Part shown: in pieces, positions 6 through 47,215 of the stretch
Layout of the letters: each line of letters begins with the position of its first letter
How positions within the stretch are numbered: position 1 is the stretch's first letter
Assembly (NCBI GenBank): GCA_016790435.1
Contig: JAEUPE010000081.1
Coordinates: 1-50,721, forward strand
Length of the DNA stretch: 50,721 bases
Direction of reading: 5' to 3'
From: Rubrivivax sp.
GTDB taxonomy: Bacteria > Pseudomonadota > Gammaproteobacteria > Burkholderiales > Burkholderiaceae_C
Notes under the pieces: model-generated
What the model was told of the DNA's origin: nothing
What the model saw: only the letters and a program-made list of their open reading frames with translations
Database searches by the model: none
Translations under genes and position numbers: made by a program

Positions 6-1193
6 TCACCCTATGGCACCATCGAACACCCGCACCATGCGCTCAATGTCGCCGACCTCGGGGCGCCGCAGGTGAGCGAGTGCGTCGCGGACGCGCTTTG
101 CACGCCGACATCCCTCTACGAGCCGCTGGGCCTCTGGCTCGACCGGTGAGAAGGGATCGGCCCGGTAGTGGGCCATCGCCACAATGTCGTTGAACTCCAG
201 GTCGTCGATAGGGACGTCGCGGGTCTCGTGCTGCCTCCAGGGGTTCACCTTCTTCCACACGCCCTTGGTGGGGGAGAGGTAGTCCTCCAGAGAAGGACGC
301 AGCAGGTCGATGACTGGACGTCGGCGCTCCTCCAACCAAGGCAGGAGCGATCGGACGCAGGCGCGCCAGTACATGCTGTAGATTCGGCCTGCAGCGGCGG
401 CCGCATCGGGGCCTTGGGACCGAGACCTGTGCCAGTCCTGGAGCGTATCGATGCTGTTTTGATGCGCAAGCTCCGGACTCCTGCCGGGTGACCGCCGACT
501 CTCACGGGGCGTGACCCTCGCCAGGCTTTCGGGCAGCTGCAGGAGCTCCTCGTGCGACAGCTGTATCAGCTCCTCTGCCAACATGGCATCCGCCCCTGCG
601 AACTCGGTGACAAGGTGGCGCGCGAGCGAGGTCGTCCCGGGTCCGCGCTGGCCGACCATGCGCAATGTGACGTACGCATGCATCTCGTCGGGAGAGAGCG
701 TGCCATCAAAGCCCACGACGCAAGGTGCGCTGGGGACCAAGGGGTCATCGCCCGCGTTCCAGATGACGACCAACCGCGTGCTGTACTTACGACCGAGTGA
801 CTGCTCTGCCGCAACTTCCGCGACATAGGCTCGGCATCGCTCCCGGGCACGAACGGTTCGAGGGGTCAGCACGATTGTGGTCCGAGGCAGCGAGGACCAC
901 GTGGCGAACTCCATCGCGGACAATGTCGCTCGGCCGAAGTGGTGTCCAACCTCAGACTCCAGGTGCGAGCCCTCGTCAAGGTCCACGAACTCGACCCGCT
1001 CCGGCACTGGGCACGCACTGCTCAGCGCATCGCGCACCGCATGCCGAAGACCTGTGATGTGGGACGCGTCGATTCGCACAACGAGCGTTCCCGAAGACTC
1101 GAGGGCGTGCGAGAGCTCGGCCGCGAACCGGCTCGGTCCCGGCAGAGCCCAGTACTGAGATACGGAAATCGCAGCCTGATGCGGCGACGTCAT
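6..1193 (-). CDS. HEPN-motif protein, last gene of the pPIWI-RE operon
   Basis: Protein of 395 residues. I chose the ATG at 1193 because it forms an ATGA overlap with the stop of the preceding giant gene; the longer frame to 1286 lies entirely inside that gene. The N-terminus (QYWALPGPSRF, then an Ile/Val-rich strand) resembles a degenerate P-loop NTPase fold without a true Walker A. The C-terminal third is helical and Arg-rich and ends in R369-D-A-L-A-H374, the R-(N/D/H)-x3-H form of the HEPN RX4H signature. HEPN proteins are commonly metal-independent RNases in toxin-antitoxin and abortive-infection systems. Translational coupling to the giant PIWI-ATPase fusion makes it a candidate toxic effector or regulator of the system. 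RNase function is inferred from one motif plus context. No recognised family covers the whole protein. Confidence 0.7.
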   Translation of the reverse strand: MTSPHQAAISVSQYWALPGPSRFAAELSHALESSGTLVVRIDASHITGLRHAVRDALSSACPVPERVEFVDLDEGSHLESEVGHHFGRATLSAMEFATWSSLPRTTIVLTPRTVRARERCRAYVAEVAAEQSLGRKYSTRLVVIWNAGDDPLVPSAPCVVGFDGTLSPDEMHAYVTLRMVGQRGPGTTSLARHLVTEFAGADAMLAEELIQLSHEELLQLPESLARVTPRESRRSPGRSPELAHQNSIDTLQDWHRSRSQGPDAAAAAGRIYSMYWRACVRSLLPWLEERRRPVIDLLRPSLEDYLSPTKGVWKKVNPWRQHETRDVPIDDLEFNDIVAMAHYRADPFSPVEPEAQRLVEGCRRAKRVRDALAHLRRPEVGDIERMVRVFDGAIG

Positions 1194-4100
1194 GACGAGT
1201 GTGCTGGGCGGGCTTCGATGAGGTCGAGATACAGGTTCGGCACCTCCCACGTCCCATCGGCCGCCTGCTGAACGAGACCCATCCACTGCGCGAAGAGAAA
1301 GTGCGCGGGCGTCAGTCCAAGGACTTCAAGGTGCTCGTCCTCTCTGGATTGGGCACGTCCTTCGCCATGCATGAGAATGAGTAAGTCCTCAAGGCGGCTG
1401 CGCGTCGCCGGGTCGATGCTCGCTGGCCAACCGATCTTCGCGTAGAAAGTCAGCAAGTCCGGCGCCAGTCGCTTGCGCGCTTCGTCAGGCTGCCGAAGCG
1501 CCTCGTCGACGGTGAGCGCCGCACCGCAGATGCGCTCGAGCACATCGCCCAGGCCGCAGCTTGCCGTCAACAGCGCGTGGCGTGCTTCGGCGCTGTCGCG
1601 AATGGGCACATTCTCGTGCTGGGGCTGGTCGAATCGGAAGTAGACCGCATCGTCACTCCAGGCCGGAATGGCGGCGACGGTCAGGTTCTTCGACACGGGC
1701 CTGCGTTGATCGCTCAGTCGTGCCGCAAGACCGAAGGCTTGCTCCGGGTCGGCCACAAGCATCGGACGCATCGTGGGCAGACGCCCTCGAGCGGCTACCT
1801 CGGGCTGGCCAGTCTGCCTGCCGAATGTCTGTGCCAGCGCGACGTAGGCATCGAGTTGGTCGAGCCGCCATCCTCGCGACAAGACCGCGACGAGCCGGGT
1901 GCGCGCCGCCCCTGGCTTCTTACGATGGCCATTGAGCCACGTGCGCGCATCCTCGGGGCCGCTGAAGGTCTTCGCCTCGATCGTGGCTTCATCCTGCGGG
2001 AGGTCCCACGGCTCGCGCAACCGATCGAACATGGCGATGCCACTGAGTTGATTGCCGACGAAGACGACCAAGTCGTTGTGCTCACTCTGCAAGAAGTTGC
2101 GCACCCACGCGCTTGGCATCGGGAACGTCTTCACGTCTGTCCTGTGGCTGACCGACAGCCGGGCCTCGCCGCGAGAGCGGTCCTCCGTCGGGGTCTCGCG
2201 GGCCAGCTCGTTGAGATGGTGCGCCACCTGCTCATGGTCGCCGAGCATGGTAGCGATGTCGGGGGTTCGCAGCTGGTAGCGCGATCCGTTGCGCTCAAGG
2301 ATGGTCAGCTTCTCCATCTCGTCGAGCAGCGCCTCATACGCACCCGGCGCCGTGGTCTTGAAGTGCTCGGGGGCGTAGGCGACACAGTGGTCGCGGATTT
2401 CAGTGGCCGTAAGACCGGCGAACACGCTGCCCGCTGCTTCAGCGTAGGAGTACTCCGCCAGGATCAGCGCGATGGCCTTGTAACGCTTATCCAGGTTGAG
2501 GTTCAGGCCGAACTTCTCCTGGATCTCGCGCAGGAACTCCTGATCCCGCTCGACGGCATCGAGGTCCCCGCTGCCGATGCTGGTCGCCAAGTCCTTGCCA
2601 GCGCGCTTGTTGTAGAGGCGATTGACCAGGTTGCGGCAGTACAGCTGAATGAAGGCCGGGTAGAAGTTGCACACGGCCATGATGCGCATTGGCAGACTCT
2701 CGTCGCCCTTGCCGAAGTGAAAGCCGAGCGCAGCCAGCGGCTTGGTGATGAGGTCGATTCCGTTAAGGATATCGGTGTCCGACGAGAACGGCTGCAACGC
2801 AATCGAAGTCGCCTTGCCGAGCGCGGTATTCCCACCGGTCGTCATCCTGGTCAGGTTGTGCAGCCCAGCGATAACGTAGCGCAGCCGGCAACGTCCGAGG
2901 ACCGTGTCACTCAGGTTCTGCAAGCTGGCAAGGAACGGCGCATTGGCCCGAAGGTCTTCTCGCATCACGTCGTCGGCTTCGTCGATGAGGAGGTAGCAGG
3001 CCTTGGTGCCCGTCCCCCCCGCGACGATTTCGTCGTGGATACGGTCGCGAATGGCCTGGTCCGTCAGCAGGTCGACTGGGCTGGAGGCCAGGAATCCGGC
3101 GGTGACCATGGCCTTGTGGATGGCCTTCCAACCGAACAGCCTGTAGTTCTGACTGAACCCCGCGGGATCCTTGCCGCTGTCCAGCGGCACGTAGATGGCC
3201 ATCTCTCCGGCGCCGACCGCCCCGGGCACCAACCGAACTTGGCTACGAGACTCTTCGAGGATTTGGTTGAGCAGCGACGACTTGCCGAGCCGACGGCCGC
3301 CGTACAGCACCGCCGCGGAAGGCACCTCGCGCAGCTTGCGAAGCTCGTTGACGCGCCCGAAGAACATCTCCGGGGGCACCGGACGGGCGCCGTAGTCCGC
3401 ATAGGGGTTCGTGCGGAAGGACAGCAGGCACACCTCCATCAGCTTGGCCAGGCGGGCGCTGGGGTGAACGGCCATGTAGGCCACCAGATCGTCATCGACG
3501 ATGAGCACGGGATGGTCGTGCCCGAGTTGGGCCCGCTGCTGCGCCGTCAGGCTCTGGCGACTAAGCAGAAAGGTCGGTGTCGCGCTCGGGAGCTGTGCGA
3601 CGCTCTGCCCCAACTTCTCGATGCTGGAGGGCTGCGGCACGATGACGCCCTCGATGTGTGTCGCATCCGAGCCGAGTGCAGGGGGGACGAAGACCCCGAA
3701 GCCAGAGGCGGCGAGCCCGGCGAATGGCTTGCCCTCGAAAAAGAACTTTCCCTCATTCGGAGAGATGACCGCGGGGTCCTGCGACAGCCCGGCGTCACGG
3801 AAGAAGTTCTCTAGCGCCTCGGCGAAGCTACCGCGTGGCCCATTCTTGAAGACGTCGCACCAGTGTCCAATGAGTCGCACAGCTTCCTCTCGGTCGACAT
3901 CGCCGAGCGAGCTCAGCCAGTCGGGAGCGTCCGCAGGCATAGGCGCGTCGCCCTTCAGGATGCCCCTCAGCCCGTCGAGAACACGGTGTCCGTGAGTGGC
4001 CTTACGGACCTGGGTGCGGAACTCCTCGAATCGGTGGCTGGCCGTTCTCTCCTCGGCCCGAAACAGCGGCAGCTTGTCTTCGCGCAACAGCAAGAACTCG

Positions 4101-7100
4101 TTGCGTGCGACCCGCACACTCAAGGCCGTGCCCTGTTCGAGCCTCGCCTGTATGCGCTGTGCCTTCTGCTCGAATTGCCGGAGCTCCGTCGGCTCGAGGT
4201 TGCGCTCGCGCTCCTTCACGAACTCCTCGATTTCCAGTTTGAGCTTCTCGCGGCTCTGCTGGATCTTGGTGTCCAGCGGGGTTAGCACCACGTGTTGAAG
4301 GACGGCCCGGGCATGTGGGAAGTCTGGGTACAGCGCGGTTACCTTGCCAGGCGAGCCGATCTCTTGTTCCGCGTTGGCGCGGACGAGCGACTCGATCACC
4401 TTGAGCATGCGGCTCGCTTCGGCTTGGGGTAGTGCGTTCAGCGACATGGCGTTCGTGACGCGTTGCTTGGCCTCTTGGAGGTCCGCGCTGAGCTTGTTGC
4501 GAGCCTCCCTCCGGGCCGTGTCGTTGTCGGCGATCACAGAGGACGGCAGGGACTTCATTGATCGCGCCAGGCGCTCCTCGATGAGTCGCGCAGGCAGAAG
4601 CCGCCCGGAGGACCGGTGCGCGGCAGCGGCATCGACGAGCAGCGCTGGCAGTTCTACCTCCGCGCCTGAGGGCCCACCGTCGGCCCGAAGTTCCCGCTCT
4701 GCCAGCGTCGCGGCCGAGACGAGTTGCCCAATGTCGGCTAGCGGCACTCGCGTCTGAGACTCGTCGGCCAGACGCCAGACCGTCGCCGGCTTCAAGTCAT
4801 GAGCCATGGGATACTGCAGGAGCAGCAACTGGTCTTCGTCTGGCACTACGCTGACGCGGGGCCTCTGTTCCATCAACGCCCGGGCGCGCTCTATGGCGCA
4901 AAGCAAGACGCGGCGGTGAAGCCCTGCAGCACCCTCGCCCAAGTCGAGGTCCTGCACGTACGCGAACGCCGCCTGCAACTCCCGGTAAAGCCCGCGCAGG
5001 AACTCCTCGTGCTTTGGGGGCAGGGTGTCCTGCTTGGCGCTCTTGAGTCGATCCAGTTGGGCAAAGAACTCGTGGACGAACTCCGACGTGGTCTTCAGGT
5101 TGCCGACCATGTAGTCTCGGCCGACGCCTTCGATGGGGCGCCGCCGGCCGATTCGCTTGCGCATGTCGGTGATGGTCGCGAGCCCCTTGTCCGCGAGTTT
5201 TTGCACTTCCGGCAGCAGCCTGCGGGCTCGGGCATCGTCACCGCGAGCGATGGCGGCCACGCACTCCCCCGTAGCGAAGCCGCGCCTTTCGGTGCAGATC
5301 GCGGCATGCAAGTCGACGTAGTCCGTCGCTGTCCAGTTCGTGACCAGCGATTGGTCCGCCGGCCAGCTGGCGGCGCGCTCGCGCATGCGCCGAACTCCGT
5401 CCTCAAGCGCCTGATGCAGGCCGACTTGGGCCGCCGACATGATCTCCGGCGTGACGATCAGATGGATGGACTCGAGCGTTGCGATGCGCTCAACCACACG
5501 GTGCAGTTCGGTGTGCGGTTGCAGCCTCGGGAGCAGGTACTGGATGGCTGACCAGCGGATGCCAGGGTCGTGCCCTGCCAGCAGCATCGGCAGCAGACTT
5601 GCACCGAACACGCCAAGGTGGTCGGCGACGGCATTCGGCATGGGCTGATCGTTCGCGTCGGAGGCCAGCCACTCCTGGAGCGCCTTGAGCGCCTCGGGCT
5701 CGATCGGGCGGCGCGACTCTGCCGCTCGGATCGCAGCCACCGCCGTGCCCCAAAGCCGCGACACCGGGCCGGGGGAAATCTCGTTCAACGCCCTGGCCGC
5801 CACCGCAGCCAGTGCCCAGTGGCCCGATTCGAGGCAGGCGAGCAGCACCTGCTGGGTGGGTTCGACCAACGGCACCGGCCCGGATGCGGTCCTAGCAGGG
5901 CCATCCGACTCTGCGGCGCCCGTCTCTGCCTCATCGGCCCCATTTGCATCATCGGGCCCGGGGGCTGCGCCGATCTCGATCGTCGCCGCTCCAGAGGACC
6001 TCCCTGCTGTCGGCGACAGACTGGAGCCAGCGCTGTCTTGTTCCTCCCCGGTTGGCACCCCGACGGGCGCCGGGGCGAGCTCCTGGCGTTCTGCCGGCGG
6101 ATGCACGGCTTGGGCAGAGGCCTCCGTCGGCGCTGCGACAGCCGTGCCGCCGGATTGCGCAGGATTTGCGGTCGGTTCGGCAGCCTCAGCGACTGAGGGC
6201 ATCCATGACGGTAGCGGAGCCGTCGGTTCCAACGCGGACCGCGGTGTCGCCGGCCCGCTGGCAAGCAGGCTGCACCGGTCAAGCGCCAGATTCAGCGCTG
6301 CGTCCGCTTCCGTCGCGCGCTGAGCGGCTGCCTGCAAGAGCGTGCCCTTCTTACGAGCCCGCTCCTTGGCGCCGAGTTGGTCGGATCCCTCGAACTCGCC
6401 CGCGTCGACTCTCGCAAGCTCGGCGTTAGCCGCCTCGGCTTCTTGCACCGCGGCACGCACGTCCCCCATCTGACGAGACGCCTCCGCCAGGGCAGCATCG
6501 CCCGGCGCCTCACCCAACGTCTCACGCACACCGATCGCGTGCCACTGACCGACTTCGAGGCCCACACGGAGCGCGCCGGCCAGGGCGTGCGCCTCCTCGT
6601 CCAGGGAATCGAGCCGCGCCGACATCGCGGCTCGCGCCGCGATCTCCGCGGCTGCCTGCGCACTCAGCTGCGCTTGCCGCGTCTGCTCGGCTTGAAGTTC
6701 GGCGGCGCGGGCCTGGAGCACTTCCTCGTGCCTGCGCTTCAGACTGTCCAGATGGGCCTGGCAGGCGTCGTGCAGGTCATCGAACGCGGAGTCTCCCGGC
6801 GTCGGCCATGCCGGCCTGCCGGTATGGGTAGTCGACGCTGGCAACTGGCTGTTGGCGTGGCTGTCGGCGGGCGTGCTGCGGCTTATGGCTGCAACGGCCT
6901 TCGCGATGGGTGCCGTTTCGTGCCCGGGAGGGGCGAACGGGCTGCCGGTTTCGCGGCTCGACACATGTTGCACGGGCGGCTGCAGGGAATCGTGCATGAA
7001 GGAATCAGTAACCTTGATGCCAGGACGCAAGACACCGGGGAGCGGCCGCATAGGCGCCGGCACGGTGTAGGTCGCGACCTTGCGGTCTCCACTTCGCTTG

Positions 7101-10100
7101 TCGTCGTAGGCCTTGTGGCAGACCTCGTGGCAGTTGGTCATGTACTCCAGGGCGGCGTGTGCGTGAGCGCCCATCGCCGCGGGGTCGACCGCCTGAAGCA
7201 CTTTGGGCACGAACTCCTTGTAGGGGTAGTGGGCCATGAGGCAGAAGACCCATCCCAGTGCCTCGTCGTCGCCGTTCTTGCACAGCCACTTGACCAGGTC
7301 GGGCATGTCGCGCCACAGCTGGCCGCGTTCCCCCTCCTCATCGGCCCGGTCAACCGCCTCGAGATAGCTCCGGTGGACCTCCTCGATGCGGTGGAAGAGG
7401 CGCTCACCACGCGAGGGAAATAGATCGGCAATGTCGAGCGCGTACAAGGACTGGGGAATAGCCAGCCGCCGCATCACCCACTCCGGGAACTGCGCGACGC
7501 TCGGCGCCTCACCGCGTTCAGGCCGAAGCCGAATGTTGAACTTGCCGATCTGTCGCCAGTAGCGCCCAATGGCCCGCTTATCCGTTGGCCATGCACTTGA
7601 CGACAAGACGGTGTCCCGGGTGACGAACCACGGCGGATCAACCCGCACTCGGACGGTGCCCAGCAACATGCCTTCGTACAGGAGCCTTGCGGCGGGACCA
7701 CTCTTCGGGGAGTAGAGCTCCGGAGCGGCGAGCGAAGCCTTCAGCGCGCGGTCCAACGCCGGGTCGGCCAACTCCACGGGTGCTGTCTCGTCCGCTTCCA
7801 TGGACGGTGTAGCAGCCGGGCTGTCCGCCTCAGCCGGCACATACGTCGCGGGCGACTCACCGACACTGGCCTCTGACGCCAACACTGCGTCACCGAGCAC
7901 GGTCTGAACGCCGCCGTCACCGAGGGCCGGCAACTCCTCCAGGACCTCAGACACGAGCTCGCTGCGCAACTCCGTCGAGGGACCGACTTCAACCGCGGAG
8001 CCCACATCTTCGGTCGGTGCGTCCGCTTCGGCAGGCGGGCCATCTGAACCCTGCACGTCGGGGGCCTCAGGGTACCGGATGATGTAGTCGCGGACCTTGC
8101 GCACGAAGAACAGCGGCGCCGGTAGGGCCGTCCAGTCGTCGTAGTGTGCGTACCCCAGCCGAAGGCCCATCACGAGGCTGGCGAGGCTGTCGGGCTTGAC
8201 CTCGTCCGGCGACTGCAGAACGGTCACTTCGAGCCCGCCAGGCAACGCCGCGTTGTCCTTGGCCACCGGCAGCAGCCTGCGCTCGAACCAGCCGGTCTTG
8301 TTCCGGCTCATGCGCGGGCGGGGGCGGTAGCAGGACATACCCCGCTTGGTCTGGACGGTACTGCGATACCCCATGACCAATAGGTAGTGCGGCAAGTGCC
8401 CCGGCCCCGTGCCGGCGTCGAGTTCGACGATGGTCTTGTAGGTGGTGGCGTACTGCTCTTCGGCGGTCTGGCGCGTGGCAACCAAGTGAGGCTCCGTGTG
8501 CCACTCCTCGAACGTAGTCGTGTTCACCCAGCGCATGCCCAGCGTCGCATTCCGATCGGCGCGCAGCCGCAACAACGTCATCGCAGGGAACACCTTGTCG
8601 AGATCGGCCTCGTCCAGGACGATGCCGCGCGCAGTGCCGCCGATGAGCGACTCGTCGGTGATCTCCGTCCACAAGCCGGCCACGGTGGACCAGTCGATGA
8701 GCACGACGGCGTGCGGGTCGTCCTCGTGGATCCGCCCCAGCATCTTCCGAGTGGCACCAGCGAAGTTGTCCTTGAGCCAGCGCTCGTCACCCGAGAGATG
8801 GCGCTGGCTGCCAAGCCATTGCAGGCCCTGGTTGAGTGGCAACCACTCGGTAGAGTAGACGCGGTTTCGGTCGCGGCAGACGAAGCTCACACTGGTCACG
8901 CCGGTGGCGACATCCAGCTTCGTGAACACGATGAGGCTGACGGGCTGTTCCTGCGTGAGTGCCCGCGCTTGCGACCTCACCGCCTGAACGCCGTAGATGG
9001 CCTTTGGGCAAGCACGTCCAAGACAACCTTGCACGAACGGCCGCACGCCGAAGACCATGCCCGAGTGGGCCAGGAAGACATCCAGCAAGGCGCTCTGCAC
9101 CCGGTGGATGAAGTGCTGCACGTCCGGCTGCTTGGTCTTGCGGTCGATCTCCAGCGGGAGAAGATGATGGACGTTGGCCTTCGCGTGGCGGCACATCGCG
9201 TGCAGGCCGGCGTAGTAGTTGACCGGATCCTCCGGCCGCTTGTTGACGTCCTTGGGAGCGCAGATCAGCACGTGCCGGGCACCGTCTGCGCCCTTGGCCA
9301 CCCCTTCGGCGACCGACTTCCACCGCTCCACCCGTGCTTCGAAGCGCCGGATGCCCTTTTCGCCTTCGAGGTCGAGGTCACCACGGAGTCCGTGAACGTT
9401 CGGGGGCAGTGGATGCACCTCGACGCGGAGTCGGTCGCCGAAGATCGCCTGAGCGCTGCGCTCGATGAGCTTGCGCTCGTCGCTGCCATCGACAAAGACC
9501 CAGAGCGACGGCGCCGTGTCGCCGTGAATGCGCGCGAGCGCCTCTTCGTTGGCGGCACGGTGCCGGGCGAGCCGCTCACGCCGCTTGGTTGCATTGGCCG
9601 GGTCATCTGCCGCGAGCGGGCCGCCCTGTTCCTCATCGGAATCTTCCCCGGGCCCGTCGTCTTCGAGCGCCGCGCCAGCCCACCCTAGGTCCGCGGCCTC
9701 GCTCGGCAGCACGTCGTCAACCTGCAGTCTCGCCACGGCGCTCTTGGCCTGCGTCATGGCCCGTGGGATCTTCAGGGTGCGGAAGGGCAGCGCGGCGTCG
9801 AGGACGTCCGGCAGCAGCTCGACCACGCACTCGTACAGGTCGACCTCGTCGGCCTCGAAGACCGTCCGCTGCTGCACGTAGTCGAAGAGCGTGGTGAGCT
9901 CGGGCAAGCCCACCCACCAGCCCTGCTCGACGGGCCTGAGATCGGCCACAGCGCGTTCGAGCGTCTCTGGCAGCGCGCCCGAGCTCTCTGCACGGTACTG
10001 GACGTAGTCGTCGCCGAAGCCCCACCCGTCCTTGCCGCGGCGAATGGTGGCCGGCAACACCGGCATTTCCGGGCTGAAGATGTAGCAGCGCACATGGGGC

Positions 10101-10948
10101 GGTGCGTTGGGCTTTCGGCCAGGAACTTTCTTTGCCCAAACCCGCTTTGCCGGCGTGACCTTCAGGTAGAGCTCTCGACTCGTCGGCCACGTCGCCACGG
10201 ACAGCCTTGCCACCATCGAGAAAACGGCGTCACTGCCGGCAACGCTCGTCGGCCAGGTCGTGAGCTCGACAGCACCGTCCAGCGACGTGGCGTCAGCGAC
10301 CACCTCACACGGGCCGAGGCCGGGAAACAGCTCTTCTCCCACGAGGCGATCGGCCAGGTGCTTTGCAATCAGGTCCCACTGTGGCTTGGTGACCTTGCCC
10401 GCGCCGTCGCGGTCAACGAGCGGCTGGCTGCGCGACTGCAGCTCGATGTTCTCCGCCGTGATGTGCGTGCGGACAGCGGCGGCCAGATCGCTGTGCCCGT
10501 TGCGCGCGGCCCACGGCCCGACGACATCCTGATACCAGCGCATCAGGACTTCGACGACCCGTTGTCTGAGCTCGTCGTGGTCCAGCGCCCCGGCAGCGCC
10601 GTCGCCAACCCATCGCAACTCCAACGCCGGTTTCGATGGATTCTTGAGGCCAAGATCCCGGTCGAGTCGCATCACACCCTCGAGCTTGGCCATGAGCGCA
10701 GCCCGCAGCCGAACGATGGGCAGGTTCTTTTCGTCCTGGTTCTTCGCCGCCTCGAGCAGCGATTGCAGCGATGTCAGCAGAGATCCCGCGAGCCGAACGG
10801 CCAGAAGCGAGACAGCCTGACTCAGCCACTCGGCCCTGATGCGAGCCCCGAGCAGCACCGGTCGATCACTGCCCTTGGTCTCGGGGGACCTGCGCCATGC
10901 CGTCGTGCTGACGCCCTGGGCTGTCGGGCTGGTGGCGTCGTCGCTCAT
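1190..10948 (-). CDS. Giant pPIWI-RE / AAA-STAND ATPase fusion protein
   Basis: A single uninterrupted frame of 3252 residues. Residues 1 to about 960 look like a pPIWI-RE protein: an N-terminal beta-rich region, a MID-like Rossmann segment near 480 (LWVFVDGSDERK), and an RNase H-like core with VVLIDW at D752 followed by LWTEITDESL, then an Arg-rich Y874-RPRPRM motif and a closing LPAPLFFVRKVRDYI segment. An acidic linker (960-1060), a coiled coil (about 1395-1450), an Ala/Pro-rich linker (about 1560-1690) and a second coiled coil (about 2230-2290) follow. Residues about 2535-2830 form a P-loop NTPase with Walker A YGGRRLGKSS (K2556) and Walker B LLIDEAD (D2656-E2657), then a winged-helix-like stretch and a 370-residue tail. 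The pPIWI-RE family normally ends after the PIWI module; the long ATPase extension is unusual. The assignment rests on motifs and on the flanking helicase and nuclease. ATP- or nucleic-acid-triggered assembly is inference. Confidence 0.75.
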   Translation of the reverse strand: MSDDATSPTAQGVSTTAWRRSPETKGSDRPVLLGARIRAEWLSQAVSLLAVRLAGSLLTSLQSLLEAAKNQDEKNLPIVRLRAALMAKLEGVMRLDRDLGLKNPSKPALELRWVGDGAAGALDHDELRQRVVEVLMRWYQDVVGPWAARNGHSDLAAAVRTHITAENIELQSRSQPLVDRDGAGKVTKPQWDLIAKHLADRLVGEELFPGLGPCEVVADATSLDGAVELTTWPTSVAGSDAVFSMVARLSVATWPTSRELYLKVTPAKRVWAKKVPGRKPNAPPHVRCYIFSPEMPVLPATIRRGKDGWGFGDDYVQYRAESSGALPETLERAVADLRPVEQGWWVGLPELTTLFDYVQQRTVFEADEVDLYECVVELLPDVLDAALPFRTLKIPRAMTQAKSAVARLQVDDVLPSEAADLGWAGAALEDDGPGEDSDEEQGGPLAADDPANATKRRERLARHRAANEEALARIHGDTAPSLWVFVDGSDERKLIERSAQAIFGDRLRVEVHPLPPNVHGLRGDLDLEGEKGIRRFEARVERWKSVAEGVAKGADGARHVLICAPKDVNKRPEDPVNYYAGLHAMCRHAKANVHHLLPLEIDRKTKQPDVQHFIHRVQSALLDVFLAHSGMVFGVRPFVQGCLGRACPKAIYGVQAVRSQARALTQEQPVSLIVFTKLDVATGVTSVSFVCRDRNRVYSTEWLPLNQGLQWLGSQRHLSGDERWLKDNFAGATRKMLGRIHEDDPHAVVLIDWSTVAGLWTEITDESLIGGTARGIVLDEADLDKVFPAMTLLRLRADRNATLGMRWVNTTTFEEWHTEPHLVATRQTAEEQYATTYKTIVELDAGTGPGHLPHYLLVMGYRSTVQTKRGMSCYRPRPRMSRNKTGWFERRLLPVAKDNAALPGGLEVTVLQSPDEVKPDSLASLVMGLRLGYAHYDDWTALPAPLFFVRKVRDYIIRYPEAPDVQGSDGPPAEADAPTEDVGSAVEVGPSTELRSELVSEVLEELPALGDGGVQTVLGDAVLASEASVGESPATYVPAEADSPAATPSMEADETAPVELADPALDRALKASLAAPELYSPKSGPAARLLYEGMLLGTVRVRVDPPWFVTRDTVLSSSAWPTDKRAIGRYWRQIGKFNIRLRPERGEAPSVAQFPEWVMRRLAIPQSLYALDIADLFPSRGERLFHRIEEVHRSYLEAVDRADEEGERGQLWRDMPDLVKWLCKNGDDEALGWVFCLMAHYPYKEFVPKVLQAVDPAAMGAHAHAALEYMTNCHEVCHKAYDDKRSGDRKVATYTVPAPMRPLPGVLRPGIKVTDSFMHDSLQPPVQHVSSRETGSPFAPPGHETAPIAKAVAAISRSTPADSHANSQLPASTTHTGRPAWPTPGDSAFDDLHDACQAHLDSLKRRHEEVLQARAAELQAEQTRQAQLSAQAAAEIAARAAMSARLDSLDEEAHALAGALRVGLEVGQWHAIGVRETLGEAPGDAALAEASRQMGDVRAAVQEAEAANAELARVDAGEFEGSDQLGAKERARKKGTLLQAAAQRATEADAALNLALDRCSLLASGPATPRSALEPTAPLPSWMPSVAEAAEPTANPAQSGGTAVAAPTEASAQAVHPPAERQELAPAPVGVPTGEEQDSAGSSLSPTAGRSSGAATIEIGAAPGPDDANGADEAETGAAESDGPARTASGPVPLVEPTQQVLLACLESGHWALAAVAARALNEISPGPVSRLWGTAVAAIRAAESRRPIEPEALKALQEWLASDANDQPMPNAVADHLGVFGASLLPMLLAGHDPGIRWSAIQYLLPRLQPHTELHRVVERIATLESIHLIVTPEIMSAAQVGLHQALEDGVRRMRERAASWPADQSLVTNWTATDYVDLHAAICTERRGFATGECVAAIARGDDARARRLLPEVQKLADKGLATITDMRKRIGRRRPIEGVGRDYMVGNLKTTSEFVHEFFAQLDRLKSAKQDTLPPKHEEFLRGLYRELQAAFAYVQDLDLGEGAAGLHRRVLLCAIERARALMEQRPRVSVVPDEDQLLLLQYPMAHDLKPATVWRLADESQTRVPLADIGQLVSAATLAERELRADGGPSGAEVELPALLVDAAAAHRSSGRLLPARLIEERLARSMKSLPSSVIADNDTARREARNKLSADLQEAKQRVTNAMSLNALPQAEASRMLKVIESLVRANAEQEIGSPGKVTALYPDFPHARAVLQHVVLTPLDTKIQQSREKLKLEIEEFVKERERNLEPTELRQFEQKAQRIQARLEQGTALSVRVARNEFLLLREDKLPLFRAEERTASHRFEEFRTQVRKATHGHRVLDGLRGILKGDAPMPADAPDWLSSLGDVDREEAVRLIGHWCDVFKNGPRGSFAEALENFFRDAGLSQDPAVISPNEGKFFFEGKPFAGLAASGFGVFVPPALGSDATHIEGVIVPQPSSIEKLGQSVAQLPSATPTFLLSRQSLTAQQRAQLGHDHPVLIVDDDLVAYMAVHPSARLAKLMEVCLLSFRTNPYADYGARPVPPEMFFGRVNELRKLREVPSAAVLYGGRRLGKSSLLNQILEESRSQVRLVPGAVGAGEMAIYVPLDSGKDPAGFSQNYRLFGWKAIHKAMVTAGFLASSPVDLLTDQAIRDRIHDEIVAGGTGTKACYLLIDEADDVMREDLRANAPFLASLQNLSDTVLGRCRLRYVIAGLHNLTRMTTGGNTALGKATSIALQPFSSDTDILNGIDLITKPLAALGFHFGKGDESLPMRIMAVCNFYPAFIQLYCRNLVNRLYNKRAGKDLATSIGSGDLDAVERDQEFLREIQEKFGLNLNLDKRYKAIALILAEYSYAEAAGSVFAGLTATEIRDHCVAYAPEHFKTTAPGAYEALLDEMEKLTILERNGSRYQLRTPDIATMLGDHEQVAHHLNELARETPTEDRSRGEARLSVSHRTDVKTFPMPSAWVRNFLQSEHNDLVVFVGNQLSGIAMFDRLREPWDLPQDEATIEAKTFSGPEDARTWLNGHRKKPGAARTRLVAVLSRGWRLDQLDAYVALAQTFGRQTGQPEVAARGRLPTMRPMLVADPEQAFGLAARLSDQRRPVSKNLTVAAIPAWSDDAVYFRFDQPQHENVPIRDSAEARHALLTASCGLGDVLERICGAALTVDEALRQPDEARKRLAPDLLTFYAKIGWPASIDPATRSRLEDLLILMHGEGRAQSREDEHLEVLGLTPAHFLFAQWMGLVQQAADGTWEVPNLYLDLIEARPAHSS

Positions 10949-10976
10949 CGATGTCCTTGCCTTGTCGGGTCGCCTT

Positions 10977-13900
10977 CTACGCGTGCTCGGTCGTCAGGCC
11001 GCTGATGTTGGACAACGGCGCGTAGAACGAGCGGTACAAGTTCTCGTAGCAGTCGCGCACCGCCGCGTCCGTGTGGTTCAGGCAGTCGTCGAGGATGCGC
11101 CGCATCATCAGCAGCATCGAGGTGCGCGCGGTGTCCGGCAGCCCCATTGCCGACTTCGGTGCCCACGCCGCGTCCACGAAGTAGACGAAGGCGGGGCAAT
11201 CCCCTCGCATGGCACGGCCGATGGTCTGCAGAATCATGATCATCTGGTCGGCGACGAAAGGCCTTGCGAACTCGCCCAGGGCTCGCGAAGCCTGCGGCAG
11301 GCGCAGCAATGCACCGACCGTCTTGGATACCCGCCCGCGCTGCGCGCGCATGGCGGCAAGCGCTGCCTCGGTCGACTCGAACCGGGACTGGTCGAAGTCC
11401 TCCGAGGCCGCGCCGACAACGCCTTGCAGGAATCCCAGGCTGTCGCTGCGAGGGTGCGCGCGCGTCAGGAAGTACAGCGACCCGATCATCGCCTTGTCGG
11501 CGCGCGGGCCGAACTCGTAGACGATGTTGACCCCGCGACCGATAGCGTTCATCGGGAAGATGAACAAGTCCCAGTTCCGGTCGTCACCCAGTCGCTCCAC
11601 CTCCGAAGCCGTGATGGCGTGGTCAGAGGCCGCCGCCAGGGCGCCGCCACGCACGAGATAGCGCACTCGTTCACGCCAGGCCGGGAACTGCTGTCGGATG
11701 TGCTCGTAGAGCAGCTCGCACTGCTCGTAGCTGTTGACCACGAAGGCCGCCTTGCGCCCGATGCCGTCCACGACGTCGTTCTGGGCGATCGCGGCCTCCA
11801 CCTTGCTGGCGCGCCCACCTTCGAGAAGCTCGGTGGCCATGGCCTTGAGCACGAACTCCCGCCGGGCGAGCCTCGAGCCGCTGAAGTAGAGCCGCTGGCG
11901 GTCATCGTGCGGGTCCCTCAGGGGCAGGAAGTGGTAGCGCGACTGGGCCCAGCCGGCTCCCGCGTTCGGGCGTCGCAAGACGTAGTGCGGGCCAACGTCG
12001 ATGTGGTAGCTCGGGCTGTCTTGCAGAAGCGAGGTCGCACTGGTGAGCAATACCGCCGGCCCCGTCCCGCCGCTGCTCAGGCCCAGTTGCGCCATCCGGT
12101 GCACGAGCATGCGGGGCGTACCGACGAAACCCACGTGTGCGATGTCTACGTCGCCCTCGTCACCGACGGTGTACCGTACGCCGCTCAGGCGGCCGGCGAG
12201 GGACTCAGGGACTATGCCGAGCAATTCCTTGGAGGGTCGCGACTCGAAGACTTCGTCGCCGAGGATGCCCTGGCCGTTCAGCAGTCGCAGGTGCGGGCCC
12301 AGGCCGAAGTGCTGCAGCACGAGCAACGTCACGTTGGCCAGCAGCCTGACGTGGTCGATGAAGAACTTCGGCTCCTTAGACGGCGCCAGGCCAGGCGCGC
12401 GTAGCAGCACGCGCGCCAGCGCCTGCATGAATTCGTCTGTGCCTTCACGGTCCCACGAATCGAGGGTCCGGAGAACGTCGGCCGCGTAGTCGCGAATCTC
12501 CTGGGGCGTGGTGCGAGCAAGTTCGGCCAGCTTGGCGAGCTCGGTGTCACTCAGGTCATAGGCCGACCCCTGCGCGTCCGTCGGGCCGTGCCCGTCCTGA
12601 GCAGCGCTGTCATCATCCTCCTGTTGCATCTGGTTCAGATGCCGCAGGGCCTCGCCGCCCTCGCGAAACGCCACCCGCTTGGCCGCGTAGTCCCACATCC
12701 GCTCGAGGGCCTGGCGCGCATTCAGGTGGTTGTCTGTCTCTTCGTCGTCGCCGCTGGCCGCATCGGCATAACCGCCCCGGGCGAGCGGAAACATGTCCGC
12801 GATGAGCGACAGGCCTGTCAGTAGCTTGCGCGCGTACTCATCGCGGAACTCGCGTGGCGACGTGACGATGGCCGCCGTCAGGCGTTCGGCAGCGAGCCCG
12901 AAGCGTCCCGACATGGCCATGATGGCAGCGATCGACGCCCCACCGACGAACGCATTGCGGCCCTGCGCAGCGGGCGCGTGCAGGTCAAGGAGCAGCCGGT
13001 TCCACACCGAGTCGGCGTCGCCGGAGAGCTTCATCAACGGCGTGCCTCGGCCGTCCATGTTGGCCTGAGCGCCATCACACTCGTCGACGACCACGAGGTC
13101 GAAGGTTCGGGCCAGGTATTCAAAGTGGCGTAGCTGGACGTCGCTGAACAGCGGCGAAACCTCGCGGTCGGTTGAGAGGATGTGCCCGGCCCAGACCGTG
13201 GCGTCGACCAGCGAGCGTTCGGCTTCCTGGCGTCCGCACACCGATGCCAAGGCGCACTGATGCGGTTTCGCGCCCTTGCCGGCTTTCGCGCCACTCGGCG
13301 TCTGCTCGACCAGCTGACACGGGGGATGGGCGTGCGGAAACGCGACGTCCTCGTCGCCGGCAAAGGCGGCCAAGCTGCAATTGGTGGCGAAGAACGGGGC
13401 AGCAGACCGCGTCACGGCGTAGCCGCGGTTGTCCTGGGACAGCGCTGCCGCAAAGCTCGCAACGTGCTTGGACCGGGCTCGATCGCTCTGCCCGAACAAC
13501 AGGGCCGAGCGCACGTCGTAGAGCGACAGGCGCTCCACGAACCCCGTGGCGACCTCGATCGAGGGGAACAGGAAGCACACGCGGTAGTCGCGCTCGCTGG
13601 CCCAGGCCGCCAGCAGATACAGCATCGTCGTCTTGCCCGACCCGGGCAGGCCGATGAGGTGCTTGACGCCGATGAGCTCCATCGAGTCGCACTCGGCAAG
13701 ACCCTCGACCGTGGCCTCTGTGAGCACCGCGGTGGGCTCGCCGCTGGCGGTGTGCAGGCGGCGATACCAGCTCCGTTCACCGGGCTGCTGGCGCCCCGCG
13801 CGTTCGTCCACCGCGTCGAAGCGGTCGGCAACTGCCACAAGGTCAACCCATCGGACCAGGCCCGGCGCACGGCCGCGACGGCCGACGTCCATCAAAGGCG

Positions 13901-14498
13901 GCTCGGGCGGCTCGAACCCAAGCGGCTCGATCGCAGTCTCGAAACGCCGCCTCTCGTCGACGACCCGGGCGGGAAGAGTTGGGTCATGACGCCGGCGCGT
14001 CGGTCGTCGACGCAGCGACAGGGGTGAGGTCAGAGATCCCAGCGCATCGCGCACATCGTCCGGCATGATCGAGGTCCAGACCGGCCGAACGCTAAGCTGG
14101 GCGTCCACCTCGAAGCGCTTGCTCGTCCCCTCTTCGTCATCCACCACGGGATCTTCCGGAGGCGGGGCCCGATCGCTCGACTCACCAGGTTCAGGGTCGT
14201 CCTCCCAGACTTTGGGTCGTGCAGCGGCGCGGCGCTGACGCTCCAGCCGTCGGTGCGTGTCGTTGTACTGGTCCACCATCAGGCGCAGTTCGCGCTGACT
14301 CCAAGGAGCGTGTCCGGAAATGCGCAGGTTCTGGATGGCCGTGGCCACGTTGAGCGGCAATGTCGCCAACACCGATTCGAACCCGGTCATGAGAGCGGGC
14401 AGGTCGCGCAGGTGTCGCTGCCCCAGCAGTTCGGTCGCAAGCAGACACAGGTAGTTCAGGACGTGGGCGCCACGGTAGGGCTGCAGGCGCTCACGCAT
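10977..14498 (-). CDS. DinG-like SF2 helicase of the pPIWI-RE island
   Basis: Protein of 1173 residues. The N-terminal 100 residues are helical and precede the motor, in the position of the accessory domain Z described for pPIWI-RE helicases. Motor motifs are clear: Walker A GLPGSGKTT (K289), Walker B VVVDECD (D472-E473), motif V around AIGRGVNIVYEF and motif VI QTIGRAMR (R1095, R1098). Four cysteines, C374, C394, C415 and C421, lie between motifs I and II, where DinG/XPD helicases bind a 4Fe-4S cluster. The likely role is ATP-driven unwinding of DNA or an RNA-DNA hybrid for the PIWI and nuclease partners. The start overlaps the nuclease stop by 8 bp, and the stop lies 28 bp before the giant gene, so all belong to one operon. 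Helicase identity is firm; the island-specific role follows from the neighbours. Confidence 0.85.
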   Translation of the reverse strand: MRERLQPYRGAHVLNYLCLLATELLGQRHLRDLPALMTGFESVLATLPLNVATAIQNLRISGHAPWSQRELRLMVDQYNDTHRRLERQRRAAARPKVWEDDPEPGESSDRAPPPEDPVVDDEEGTSKRFEVDAQLSVRPVWTSIMPDDVRDALGSLTSPLSLRRRPTRRRHDPTLPARVVDERRRFETAIEPLGFEPPEPPLMDVGRRGRAPGLVRWVDLVAVADRFDAVDERAGRQQPGERSWYRRLHTASGEPTAVLTEATVEGLAECDSMELIGVKHLIGLPGSGKTTMLYLLAAWASERDYRVCFLFPSIEVATGFVERLSLYDVRSALLFGQSDRARSKHVASFAAALSQDNRGYAVTRSAAPFFATNCSLAAFAGDEDVAFPHAHPPCQLVEQTPSGAKAGKGAKPHQCALASVCGRQEAERSLVDATVWAGHILSTDREVSPLFSDVQLRHFEYLARTFDLVVVDECDGAQANMDGRGTPLMKLSGDADSVWNRLLLDLHAPAAQGRNAFVGGASIAAIMAMSGRFGLAAERLTAAIVTSPREFRDEYARKLLTGLSLIADMFPLARGGYADAASGDDEETDNHLNARQALERMWDYAAKRVAFREGGEALRHLNQMQQEDDDSAAQDGHGPTDAQGSAYDLSDTELAKLAELARTTPQEIRDYAADVLRTLDSWDREGTDEFMQALARVLLRAPGLAPSKEPKFFIDHVRLLANVTLLVLQHFGLGPHLRLLNGQGILGDEVFESRPSKELLGIVPESLAGRLSGVRYTVGDEGDVDIAHVGFVGTPRMLVHRMAQLGLSSGGTGPAVLLTSATSLLQDSPSYHIDVGPHYVLRRPNAGAGWAQSRYHFLPLRDPHDDRQRLYFSGSRLARREFVLKAMATELLEGGRASKVEAAIAQNDVVDGIGRKAAFVVNSYEQCELLYEHIRQQFPAWRERVRYLVRGGALAAASDHAITASEVERLGDDRNWDLFIFPMNAIGRGVNIVYEFGPRADKAMIGSLYFLTRAHPRSDSLGFLQGVVGAASEDFDQSRFESTEAALAAMRAQRGRVSKTVGALLRLPQASRALGEFARPFVADQMIMILQTIGRAMRGDCPAFVYFVDAAWAPKSAMGLPDTARTSMLLMMRRILDDCLNHTDAAVRDCYENLYRSFYAPLSNISGLTTEHA

Positions 14499-15900
14499 GG
14501 CTCAGCTCCTCGACGGCGTCGGCGAGCGTCAGGGCCCGAATGGGCGAGCCCTCCAAGCAGGCGCTGACGCGGTCGACGTAGTTCGGGACACGGCGCGCCA
14601 GCCAGTCCGGAATAACCAACCACGGAGTCTTGTAGGTCATCAGGCCGCCAGGCCGTCGGCGCAACCGCTCGCCCAGCAGTTCCGGACTGCTGTAGGCCTT
14701 CAGGTCGATGCCGACCTTGCCGCCTTCGCCCAGGTCGAGGTCCACCGTGTCGCGGTTCGGATACATGCGCACGGTGTGGCCCCGAGCGGCAAGTCGCTCG
14801 GCCAGGCGCAACTCGTCGATCCCCGGCTCGAGCCAGTACTTGCGCAGCGGCCTGTTGAGGCGGAAGAGGTCCGCTGCAGGCAACGTGAGCCCACGGCTCG
14901 CACCGTGCTCGGCCGCGCAGGCTGCGGTGGTGCAATGCAATGCCCCGCGGCTTCGCGTCATGACGTTGTTGCAGTGACTGCAAAGCGTGGTCGTCTCGCC
15001 GGCGGCAAGCGCGCCGGGCAGAGGCTCATAGAACTGCTGCTCGACGCAGACCCACACGGCCGAGGGCAATCCGGCGAGAAACTTGAGCAAGTGCTTGCGC
15101 GTGACCACGGGGTTGCGAACGACGAACGTGCGAACCTGCGTGTAGTAGTCGTCCGCATCCTTGGCGGACTGCTTGGACAGGCTGTCTTGAAAGGCAGCGA
15201 AGACCTGCTCTTCGAGCAGTCCCGTCATGCCGGCAAAGCCCCTGGCCAACTCTTCGGCCTCGAGCGTCGGCATCCGATCCTCAGCGTCGATGAGGCAGAC
15301 CGTCGCCAGGCCCCCGTCGGTGACGGAAGGTACGGGCAGCCACTCACCCAACGGCTTCGTGCAATGGGCAAGCAGTTCGTGAATTTCGGCGCCGACGTCT
15401 CTCAGGCCGAGCGTGAGCCGTGCTCGCGAGACCAGCGCCATCGCCCGCCTGTCCTCGTCACCCAGTCCAGCTACGCCGCTCCAGAGCCGGTCGACCCCTG
15501 AAACCATCGTGGCGCCGCCGCCCATGAAGACTTGGCGGCCCTGGCGCATCACGAGCGCGGCCAAGCTCGCGGGCAGTGCGTTCATCGGGTCGCCACGGGG
15601 CCGCCAGACCGTGCCTTCACGGTCCTCCCCCGACTCCGCGCCGCTGGTCGCCGTGGCCTTGAGAGCGTCTGCAACCAGCGCTTCGATCTTTTCCACGAGC
15701 AGGCGAGGAATCGTGCGGAAGTCACTCGACTCCGCCGGCATGCGGTACGTCTTCATCGCCCGCGGCTCGACCCCGAGGCGAGCGGCAAACTGGTCCCAGG
15801 TCAGCCGAGATCCACCGGCGCCCAGGGCACGCTTCGCTGCGACCAGGAATGCCTTCTGGTCGATCTTGAGGTCTGCGGCAGGGCCGGAATCTTGTTGCAT
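14491..15900 (-). CDS. pPIWI-RE-associated REase-fold nuclease with HTH and zinc ribbon
   Basis: Protein of 469 residues, first gene of the operon. Residues about 30-65 (LTWDQFAARLGVEPRAMKTY) read as an Xre-like helix-turn-helix. The middle (about 95-290) is an unassigned helical region matching the position of the domain Y of pPIWI-RE nucleases. C307, C310, C323 and C328 form a zinc-ribbon-like knuckle. The C-terminal nuclease core shows E363 in a helix, TVDLDL with D387 and D389, and IDLKAY with D399 and K401, which is the PD-(D/E)XK arrangement. The expected activity is metal-dependent DNA cleavage. The ATG at 15900 has no strong Shine-Dalgarno sequence and lies about 14 bases behind a predicted promoter start. 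The HTH may make it the autoregulator of the operon, since palindromes sit in that promoter. The nuclease fold is well supported; target and regulation are inferred. Confidence 0.75.
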   Translation of the reverse strand: MQQDSGPAADLKIDQKAFLVAAKRALGAGGSRLTWDQFAARLGVEPRAMKTYRMPAESSDFRTIPRLLVEKIEALVADALKATATSGAESGEDREGTVWRPRGDPMNALPASLAALVMRQGRQVFMGGGATMVSGVDRLWSGVAGLGDEDRRAMALVSRARLTLGLRDVGAEIHELLAHCTKPLGEWLPVPSVTDGGLATVCLIDAEDRMPTLEAEELARGFAGMTGLLEEQVFAAFQDSLSKQSAKDADDYYTQVRTFVVRNPVVTRKHLLKFLAGLPSAVWVCVEQQFYEPLPGALAAGETTTLCSHCNNVMTRSRGALHCTTAACAAEHGASRGLTLPAADLFRLNRPLRKYWLEPGIDELRLAERLAARGHTVRMYPNRDTVDLDLGEGGKVGIDLKAYSSPELLGERLRRRPGGLMTYKTPWLVIPDWLARRVPNYVDRVSACLEGSPIRALTLADAVEELSHA

Positions 15901-17334: not shown

Positions 17335-17979
17335 TCATCGCTTCAGGTAGCCCAAGCGGTGCGTGTGCGCGTCGATCACGTCGGTGAACAGCGGATCGCT
17401 CAGCGGGCGATTCGACAGCGGCGCGTCGGGCATCGCATCCTCGGCACGCTCATTGAGAGCGATGGCGCTCGCGCCGGGATCCATCGACGACAGGTACAGC
17501 AGCCCATCGCAGTCGAATGCTCCGTACAGCGCGCGAGCCCATTCGCGCGCCCGGTGTCGCGGTCCCGAGTGGATCGCGAGCGATGCGCCCATGCGCGTCG
17601 CGAAACGCCCGGTCAGATCGAGCAGAGTCAGGTCGCGCCGCGGCGAGAACACGCACAGGTAGGGATCGTTGTCGATGCGGTTGACGACGCGGGTCGCCTG
17701 GAAGACTTCGGCGACGCAGGTGATGCCCTGCTTCGCGCAGTAGAGGATCTTGCGCGACTGCACCTGCGGCTTTCCCGAGTCGTCGGGCAGGTGGTGATCG
17801 AAGCGTGCGTTGGTGGCCGGCCCCCAGGCCCTGAACTCGTTCCATGCCACCGGATGCGGACCGCTCGCGTAGTAGATGCGGGCAAGCCTGTCTCGAACGG
17901 CATGGATCGTGGCGCGGGGCGGATCGAGTTCCCGCAGGACGCTGGTGGAGGGCGGCCTACCCAGCTTGGCCACGCGCAA
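17335..17979 (-). CDS. RES-domain toxin
   Basis: Protein of 214 residues. RES-family toxins degrade or modify NAD+ and are named for conserved Arg, Glu and Ser. Here R34 lies in RIYYASGPHP, E91 in CVAEVFQATR and the serines in LLYLSSMDPGASAIAL, in the expected order. WNEFRAWGP after the arginine strand is also typical. The start overlaps the end of the upstream antitoxin by 23 bp, giving the usual antitoxin-then-toxin order with translational coupling. It probably contributes to addiction of the element or to growth arrest. The only alternative start with support is a short one further downstream; length and neighbours favour this one. Confidence 0.85.
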   Translation of the reverse strand: MRVAKLGRPPSTSVLRELDPPRATIHAVRDRLARIYYASGPHPVAWNEFRAWGPATNARFDHHLPDDSGKPQVQSRKILYCAKQGITCVAEVFQATRVVNRIDNDPYLCVFSPRRDLTLLDLTGRFATRMGASLAIHSGPRHRAREWARALYGAFDCDGLLYLSSMDPGASAIALNERAEDAMPDAPLSNRPLSDPLFTDVIDAHTHRLGYLKR

Positions 17980-18601
17980 GACCTTCGGCGATCGCGATCA
18001 CCGGCGCGATGTCGCCGCTGCGCAGCAGGTACTTGCGGGGCGACGAGGGCTCACCTTGTGCGTCGGGCAGATCGGGCGTCGGCGTGGCAAGCCACGACAG
18101 CGCCTCGAGCGTGTCGATGCCCTTGGGCAGCGCGCGCAGCACGTGGCCCAGGCCGGGGATCTCGGCGTTCTTGTGGAACTGCAACTCCGGCAGCCGCATC
18201 TCGCCGCCGGATACCAGGGCGAGCAGCGAGCCTTCGCGGACTCGCTGGCGGATGCGCGATGGGTCCTTGCCCAGCCGCTTGGCGGCTTCGGCCGCAGGCA
18301 GCGCCGACTGGAAGACGTGGAAGAACACGTTGAGGGATTCCTGCCGCGCGGCCTCGGCCGCGGCTTCGGTCCGCTCGTCCGGCATCATGCCGACGGCAGC
18401 CAGCACCTCGCGCTCGCCGGCGCTCAGCGCGTGCGCCGGGTCGAGGGTGGATCGCTGGCGGAACTGTCCCGGGCTGACGGCGCGCCCGAGGAAGGCTTCC
18501 AGGGCCGCGTGGACGTAGTCCTCGTCACTGAGATCGGCGCGGCGAACGCGCTTGCCGGTCGGCGCATGCAGCAGGGCTGAAGCAGCTGTCTCAGTGGTCA
18601 T
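17957..18601 (-). CDS. Antitoxin partner of the RES toxin
   Basis: Protein of 214 residues immediately upstream of the RES toxin. It begins at MTTETAAS. Residues about 105-140 (EAAKRLGKDPSRIRQRVREG) look like a helix-turn-helix, followed by GEMRLPELQF and a C-terminal region (VLRALPKGIDTLEALSWLATP) of the kind that binds RES toxins. It differs from the short Xre/MbcA/ParS antitoxins in having a long N-terminal part. It would neutralise the toxin and probably repress its own promoter just upstream of 18601. Pair membership is strongly supported by the overlap; the fold is inferred. Confidence 0.75.
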   Translation of the reverse strand: MTTETAASALLHAPTGKRVRRADLSDEDYVHAALEAFLGRAVSPGQFRQRSTLDPAHALSAGEREVLAAVGMMPDERTEAAAEAARQESLNVFFHVFQSALPAAEAAKRLGKDPSRIRQRVREGSLLALVSGGEMRLPELQFHKNAEIPGLGHVLRALPKGIDTLEALSWLATPTPDLPDAQGEPSSPRKYLLRSGDIAPVIAIAEGLARGQAG

Positions 18602-29862: not shown

Positions 29863-29877
29863 GGGTTTGTGCTCCGC

Positions 29878-32365: not shown

Positions 32366-32381
32366 GACGATCTCCTGCGCC

Positions 32382-36198: not shown

Positions 36199-36257
36199 GG
36201 CTGGAGGTCTCGTGTTGCAGGAGGTCCGCGGTGATGCGTTGCTTGCGCGGCTGGCGG

Positions 36258-47212: not shown

Positions 47213-47215
47213 GCA

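Follow-up and report, generated by a model that had tools for sequence, protein, structure and literature searches.

What does a pPIWI-RE island gain when its PIWI protein continues into a large ATPase and a fourth gene follows it? The question is raised by a stretch of Rubrivivax sp. DNA (assembly GCA_016790435.1, contig JAEUPE010000081.1, bases 1-50721; contig 29 of 302 in a genome of 5.39 Mb with an estimated completeness of 80.8%), whose whole length of 50,721 nucleotides is called the window here. Open reading frame (ORF) calling placed four genes on its minus strand, in the order RE, DinG, giant and fourth gene; they encode a restriction endonuclease (REase), a DinG-type helicase, a giant protein that joins a PIWI module to a STAND-type ATPase, and a smaller protein with an RX4H motif. 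The RE and DinG genes overlap by 8 bp, DinG and the giant gene are separated by a 28-bp gap, and the giant and fourth genes share an ATGA overlap, all exactly as described in an earlier reading of this DNA made without database searches (the sequence-only reading). Our answer, which we hold at a little less than an even chance, is that these genes form a two-layer immune operon, in which a pPIWI-RE cutting layer is coupled to an abortive layer leading from the STAND ATPase to a HEPN RNase. The architecture is read from sequence and predicted fold; the signal path between the layers is one that we infer.

Judged by its profile matches, the pPIWI-RE core (REase, DinG helicase and PIWI) is complete. 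PADLOC identified PprRE and PprDinG (E-values in the table) as well as PprPIWI (3.6e-32), with RNaseH_pPIWI_RE (8.8e-37) alongside. Residues 50-957 of the giant are assigned to pPIWI-RE domains, since X, MID and RNaseH_pPIWI_RE each score above the Pfam cut-off; the sequence-only reading had set a match of residues 1-960 to this family as a test of its proposal. Together with the PprRE match, the residues C307, C310, C323, C328, D387, D399 and K401, unchanged in all five sequences compared, bear out the PD-(D/E)XK nuclease and zinc ribbon previously described, while the helix-turn-helix (HTH) domain placed at the N-terminus of this protein has no Pfam match at an E-value of 0.1. The superfamily 2 helicase does carry the DinG-like cysteines ascribed to it: C374, C394, C415 and C421 are present in 18/18 giant-type helicases reaching that region and in 4/4 three-gene comparators, and the motifs GLPGSGKT and DECD are found at positions 283 and 472, respectively.

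The PIWI module of the giant is probably devoid of nuclease activity. The expected first catalytic Asp, at a position read from the RNase H fold without PsPIWI-RE in the alignment, is Q or S in all 21 giants (Q655 in the window), and this replacement suggests that the module binds nucleic acid and does not cut it. The second Asp (D752 in the window), located in the same manner, is kept in 19/21 giants, and four three-gene pPIWI-RE proteins likewise lack the first. R794 (21/21 giants) and R796 (20/21) are alternative candidates for the Arg that, with a Glu, makes up the RE signature. Comparison with the loci L011 and L013 points to purifying selection on the HEPN, PIWI and ATPase parts, with ratios of nonsynonymous to synonymous substitution (dN/dS) of 0.11-0.16 at a high dS of 1.0-3.2.

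From about residue 1690 onward the giant is, by profile comparison, a member of a separate ATPase family that is also found without PIWI. Its scaffold (approximately residues 1690-2437) matches the N-terminal regions of PIWI-less ATPases (99.5%, E 1.9e-22), and the Walker motifs are invariant in 64/64 family members. In its predicted fold, which includes a winged helix and the Walker motifs, the ATPase core is close to the STAND ATPases of archaea and the NLR switches of plants. Two sequence-profile searches of the PDB gave only ribosomal S15 (E 0.46-0.48) in one case and nothing in the other. Among 20 relatives of the ATPase, PADLOC found no family besides PbeB (1) and PDC-S06 (1), and NCBIfam none besides one weak orc1/cdc6 match. 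We also considered and rejected an identity as DUF499/HmaC: the giant has no Pfam DUF499 match at E 0.1, and PADLOC HmaC was found neither in the giant (E 1) nor in 20 relatives (E 0.001). The linker between the two halves (approximately residues 958-1689) is Pro/Ala-rich, partly coiled-coil-like and fast-evolving (41-51% identity and dN/dS of 0.27-0.30 versus L011-L013, against 0.11-0.15 for the other parts). An assembly artefact or frameshift behind the giant was ruled out by single ORFs of 3086-3481 aa that hold both the PIWI and ATPase parts in its relatives.

The product of the fourth gene is, on the basis of sequence and model, a STAND-like domain lacking Walker A joined to an RX4H, HEPN-type domain. 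In an AlphaFold2 model of the 395-aa protein (pLDDT 92, pTM 0.90), the STAND-like half resembles STAND/AAA folds, including clamp-loader and origin recognition complex (ORC) subunits (fold matches span residues 4-284), and the RX4H domain is helical. Walker A is absent from the first 250 residues in 43/43 family members, and the N-terminal part, as modelled, has what defines an inactive STAND (iSTAND) domain, a STAND/AAA fold without Walker A. The RX4H motif noted in the sequence-only reading is well founded, as R369 and H374 are invariant in all 43 relatives (A373 is nearly so). We take the window protein to be a probable HEPN member through the links of its family to that domain: HEPN_Swt1 of Pfam is present in 8/43 of them (best 1.8e-5; the window protein is not among the eight), a profile of the 31 non-betaproteobacterial members matches known Swt1-like HEPN domains at 95.1%, and the betaproteobacterial HEPN profile matches the non-betaproteobacterial one at 99.1%. 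The fourth gene probably codes for an RNA-cutting enzyme. Neither the STAND-like start of its product nor the existence of PIWI-less relatives of the giant's C-terminal half had been noted in the sequence-only reading. A HAD hydrolase identity was discarded, its Pfam E-values of 0.07-0.08 being below the family cut-off and unsupported by the predicted fold.

This four-gene set is a distinct, recurrent variant of pPIWI-RE. One pattern-based genome scan yielded 315 relatives of the ATPase, of which 80 were examined; 19 of these carry PIWI and ATPase in one ORF, each with DinG directly upstream and a HEPN-type gene directly downstream. RE is present in 18/18 genomes behind the fused loci (L043 omitted); in every case it shares the strand of the DinG ORF and overlaps it. 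When the 19 scan loci are taken together with L004, L005, L006, L010 and the window, all four genes are adjacent and on the same strand in 24/24 PIWI-giant loci (L043 and L005 are one record, counted twice), and it is on this co-occurrence, proposed as a test in the earlier reading, that we base the status of the variant. PIWI and ATPase share one polypeptide in 23/24 loci, the only split case being Azospirillum ramasamyi (L010, 6921-16697), where the annotation divides the giant between two ORFs at a point inside the PIWI part. The hosts are betaproteobacteria and alphaproteobacteria, and some of the loci are plasmid-borne. In all four plasmid PIWI-giant loci (L004, L005, L006 and L010) the annotation shows a gene for a WYL-domain protein, likely a repressor, upstream of RE on the opposite strand. 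RE is matched twice on one contig of A. oryzae COC8; the weaker match (L117, G413:C32 405896-406888) lies about 63 kb from the other and perhaps marks another pPIWI-RE island.

The operon is patchy in its distribution and probably mobile, since the fourth gene has no match in any of 18 same-genus genomes and RNaseH_pPIWI_RE matched only 3/398 genomes of the phylum, that of the window included (2 above cut-off). The ATPase part had no match among 50,697 phage records, and a search with P0001 retrieved nothing from the plasmid collection.

The ATPase and the HEPN gene had been presented as an addition to the pPIWI-RE set. The extended island stands, but neither component is peculiar to pPIWI-RE, for both occur without PIWI, alone or near other defence genes; the ATP-driven sensing step and the RNA-cleaving abortive arm ascribed to them are putative. 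A HEPN-type gene adjoins 31 of the 61 examined ATPases without PIWI seen. Three loci of this set, L019, L021 and L029, are placed within or next to PIWI clades by the ATPase tree and may simply be truncated by the contig end, and several others are contig-cut as well. Given its adjacency to these ATPases, we regard the HEPN gene as going with the ATPase rather than with PIWI. Large DruE-like helicases lie near the ATPase in 17 loci (L035 and L058 scanned), a protein of approximately 740-820 aa in seven, mostly preceded by a DpdF-like helicase of about 1200-1300 aa (L033 scanned), DrmE-like proteins in four, three of them with a DrmA-like protein, and an HmaB-like methylase plus helicase in L026; these labels come from PADLOC or Pfam matches of one or two proteins per group, with the rest grouped by BLAST. 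Of 23 genomes with a PIWI-less ATPase, 20 gave no RNaseH_pPIWI_RE match. One of the remaining three, that of Salinispora, encodes a three-gene RE-DinG-PIWI island (L121, 4259-11294, DinG in two ORFs), which lies on the same contig as a locus for the ATPase and a DpdF-like helicase (L033), about 3.5 kb away on the opposite strand. The ATPase-HEPN pair has the appearance of a portable cassette, with predicted functions of switch and RNase, that is used by other defence clusters too.

The HEPN-type protein may itself be extended. In 13/24 PIWI-giant loci, all alphaproteobacterial, it runs on into a P-loop kinase, which is found in 0/11 betaproteobacterial loci and is missing from the window protein. 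Within the family, Pfam AAA_33 is matched by 8/43 members and bacter_Pnkp (TIGR04075) by 7/43 (best 1.5e-16); in the PDB the kinase matches 4jst (3.1e-8), a Clostridium thermocellum Pnkp kinase, and Pnkp1 (4xrp, 8.6e-7). The domain of the alphaproteobacterial proteins is accordingly classified, by these matches, as a Pnkp-type P-loop kinase. Its role may lie in guide-making, RNA repair or regulation of the RNase. A HEPN nuclease is also paired with a polynucleotide kinase in the eukaryotic Las1-Grc3 (PMC10942766; for this and the other papers given by PMC number, our statements refer to the accessible part of the text).

The PIWI giants occupy two clades of the 64-row ATPase tree, one betaproteobacterial and one alphaproteobacterial. 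A single PIWI-giant clade was rejected for 21 rows (18 with PIWI and 3 cut contigs) by the approximately unbiased test (p 0.0067). It was not rejected (p 0.133) when L056 was added as a PIWI loser. This locus of Phyllobacterium (6089-13944) encodes the ATPase and a HEPN-kinase protein and no PIWI; because it is nested in the alphaproteobacterial PIWI clade and its genome is without a PIWI match, PIWI may have been lost there. The DinG tree, which leaves out L010, L043 and L044, puts the giants on one side with a support of only 20 and long branches. Both one fusion followed by one loss and two fusions are possible.

How might the two layers work together? In the proposed two-layer operon, the PIWI module would hold a guide or a DNA-RNA hybrid, PIWI and DinG would mark transcribed invading DNA, and the REase would cut the DNA so marked. 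A model put forward in 2013 has pPIWI-RE as the sensor of DNA-RNA hybrids, DinG as their remodeller and the REase as the cutting enzyme (PMC3702460). Once the PIWI end is engaged, or if the cutting layer fails, the fused STAND module would change or oligomerise in an ATP-dependent manner, and the fourth protein would dock onto it through its dead STAND-like domain, like inactive AAA subunits in clamp loaders and ORC. The HEPN RNase would then be released and cut RNA, leading to dormancy or death; precedents exist in HEPN RNases under ATPase control (PMC3710099). More tentatively, and below even odds in our estimation, we suggest that an Argonaute-type sensor of guides or hybrids is built directly into an NLR-like STAND switch, which in turn triggers a HEPN RNase residing on another protein, that the STAND and iSTAND-HEPN pair is a general plug-in effector of pPIWI-RE, Druantia-like, Dpd-like and Hma-like loci (with the ATPase alone in DISARM-like ones), and that in alphaproteobacteria its output is a nuclease-kinase of Las1-Grc3 type. 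Several observations weigh against the two-layer operon. The fourth protein of the window has no direct HEPN match in a profile scan, and the betaproteobacterial HEPN profile taken alone reaches just 2.6% with known HEPN domains (2.3% for a control segment). No HEPN gene was found near 30/61 PIWI-less ATPases (4 of the 30 have less than 600 bp downstream), nor was a HEPN match obtained in any of the four DrmE-type loci, and the ATPase can therefore work without HEPN. Moreover, PsPIWI-RE is reported to cut nucleic acid and to affect cell division, rather than to show a phage phenotype (PMC10991935).

The kinase invites a different explanation, namely that guides for PIWI are produced from RNA by the HEPN RNase and that the Pnkp-type kinase of the alphaproteobacterial form phosphorylates the 5'-OH ends left by HEPN, as in Las1-Grc3. 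The fusion of the kinase to HEPN in the alphaproteobacterial loci, its matches to Pnkp families and to the Pnkp1 structure, and the Las1-Grc3 pairing itself speak for guide-making of this kind. We nevertheless think it unlikely: the betaproteobacterial loci manage without a kinase, the ATPase of L056 is accompanied by HEPN and kinase in a genome without a PIWI match, many other PIWI-less ATPases are accompanied by HEPN, and all kinase cases fall in one clade of the ATPase tree and thus reflect few independent events. In addition, PsPIWI-RE binds 5'-P and 5'-OH guides alike (PMC10991935).

The fourth protein, with or without the kinase, could instead be mainly a regulator or a structural subunit of the ATPase, its HEPN domain binding RNA and leaving it uncut. 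The failure of the window protein to match HEPN directly would suit such a role, as would the resemblance of its STAND-like half to subunits that act as structural ring partners in clamp loaders and ORC; yet a purely structural role leaves the invariance of R369 and H374 in all 43 relatives unexplained, and we consider it distinctly improbable. We give still less credence to the idea that a pPIWI-RE island and an ATPase-HEPN system simply travel together, fused without a shared function. Each of the two does exist alone, as three-gene islands without the ATPase and as ATPase-HEPN pairs without PIWI, and in Salinispora a three-gene island and an ATPase locus are neighbours on opposite strands of one contig. 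Against this stand the single polypeptide that joins PIWI and ATPase in all loci except L010, the constant company of the four genes, and the occurrence of the fusion in two bacterial classes.

Features of the four-gene operon (positions refer to the window)
Feature	Position	Strand	Evidence
PprRE: domain Y, zinc ribbon and REase-fold nuclease, 469 aa	14491..15900	-	PADLOC PprRE 2.5e-42; pPIWI_RE_REase 360-464; domain Y
PprDinG: SF2 DinG-type helicase, 1173 aa	10977..14498	-	PADLOC PprDinG 4.5e-157
Giant PIWI-STAND ATPase protein, 3252 aa	1190..10948	-	single ORF
pPIWI-RE module of the giant: X 50-280, MID 496-634, RNaseH 652-957	8078..10801	-	Pfam 4e-9, 4.6e-11, 3.4e-33
Linker of the giant, ~residues 958-1689	5882..8077	-	composition, dN/dS
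Helical scaffold of the ATPase family, ~residues 1690-2437 of the giant	3638..5881	-	profile match
Predicted STAND ATPase core, ~residues 2514-2904 of the giant; Walker A GGRRLGK 2550-2556	2237..3409	-	
Fourth protein, 395 aa: predicted STAND-like domain without Walker A (~4-255) and RX4H HEPN-type domain (~262-394)	6..1193	-	
RX4H motif R369-H374 of the fourth protein	72..89	-	invariance in relatives

The fourth ORF may begin at the ATGA start (6-1193, 395 aa) or at a GTG (6-1286, 426 aa). The contig starts right after its stop codon, and the downstream neighbourhood in the Rubrivivax genome lies outside the contig. F-type conjugation genes occupy positions 26792-37805 (-) of the window (TraC 9.9e-83, TraU 7.9e-101, TraN 9.6e-54, DsbC-like 4.3e-19); since they share the window with the island, the latter likely sits on a conjugative element. 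Between the island and the transfer genes, a RES-domain protein (3e-12) and an adjoining winged-HTH protein (17335-18601, -) are encoded by what looks like a toxin-antitoxin pair. Farther along, at 44516-48316 (-), genes for a Subtilase (1.4e-29) and then an AAA ATPase (9.3e-30) lie next to an HTH gene. Protease-ATPase pairs of the Subtilase/AAA kind are candidate defence genes.

If our proposal is correct, Argonaute-style recognition of nucleic acid and an NLR-style ATP switch are united in one protein, and a testable two-output model becomes available for pPIWI-RE, a system with a still unsettled role that was proposed to restrict invaders (2013) and later reported to affect cell division (2022). 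The ATPase family, unnamed by PADLOC and NCBIfam, recurs near several helicase-based defence clusters. Neither the PIWI-STAND fusion nor the ATPase-HEPN cassette is described, as far as their accessible text goes, among the matches listed by our literature search, whose coverage lies mostly outside subscription journals.

The closest known system is the three-gene pPIWI-RE island (Burroughs, Iyer and Aravind 2013, PMC3702460), in which REase, DinG and pPIWI-RE are likewise encoded in this fixed order and the gene ends overlap. The forms named in section 8 of that paper are standalone, three-gene and, rarely, zincin-fused only, and neither HEPN nor ATPase occurs as a word in its main text; here, the PIWI protein has 3252 aa and a predicted STAND ATPase at its end, and a fourth gene is predicted to add a dead STAND-like domain with HEPN. 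The ATPase core shares its predicted fold, winged helix and intact Walker A and B motifs with NLR and bacterial STAND ATPases (plant resistosomes, CED-4, archaeal 2qen), from which it would differ in having an Argonaute-type PIWI module at its input end and its effector in a separate protein. BREX-related DUF499/Hma systems and the BREX iSTAND (PMC12839542) likewise combine an ORC/STAND-type ATPase with HEPN and inactive STAND parts near methylase and helicase genes, but the present ATPase has no DUF499/HmaC match, and HEPN is carried by the dead STAND-like protein, not by the ATPase. Some relatives of the ATPase stand beside DruE-, DrmA/DrmE- or DpdF-like genes, as in Druantia, DISARM and Dpd; the ATPase itself, however, matches none of the components of these systems in PADLOC (DruH is a YjiT-family protein, PMC13192584). 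Finally, PrrC, RloC and similar proteins provide HEPN RNases that an ATPase keeps in check and that come into play upon failure of restriction (PMC3710099), whereas the control proposed for the present operon would depend on a fusion of Argonaute-type sensor and STAND ATPase, in a polypeptide separate from the RNase.

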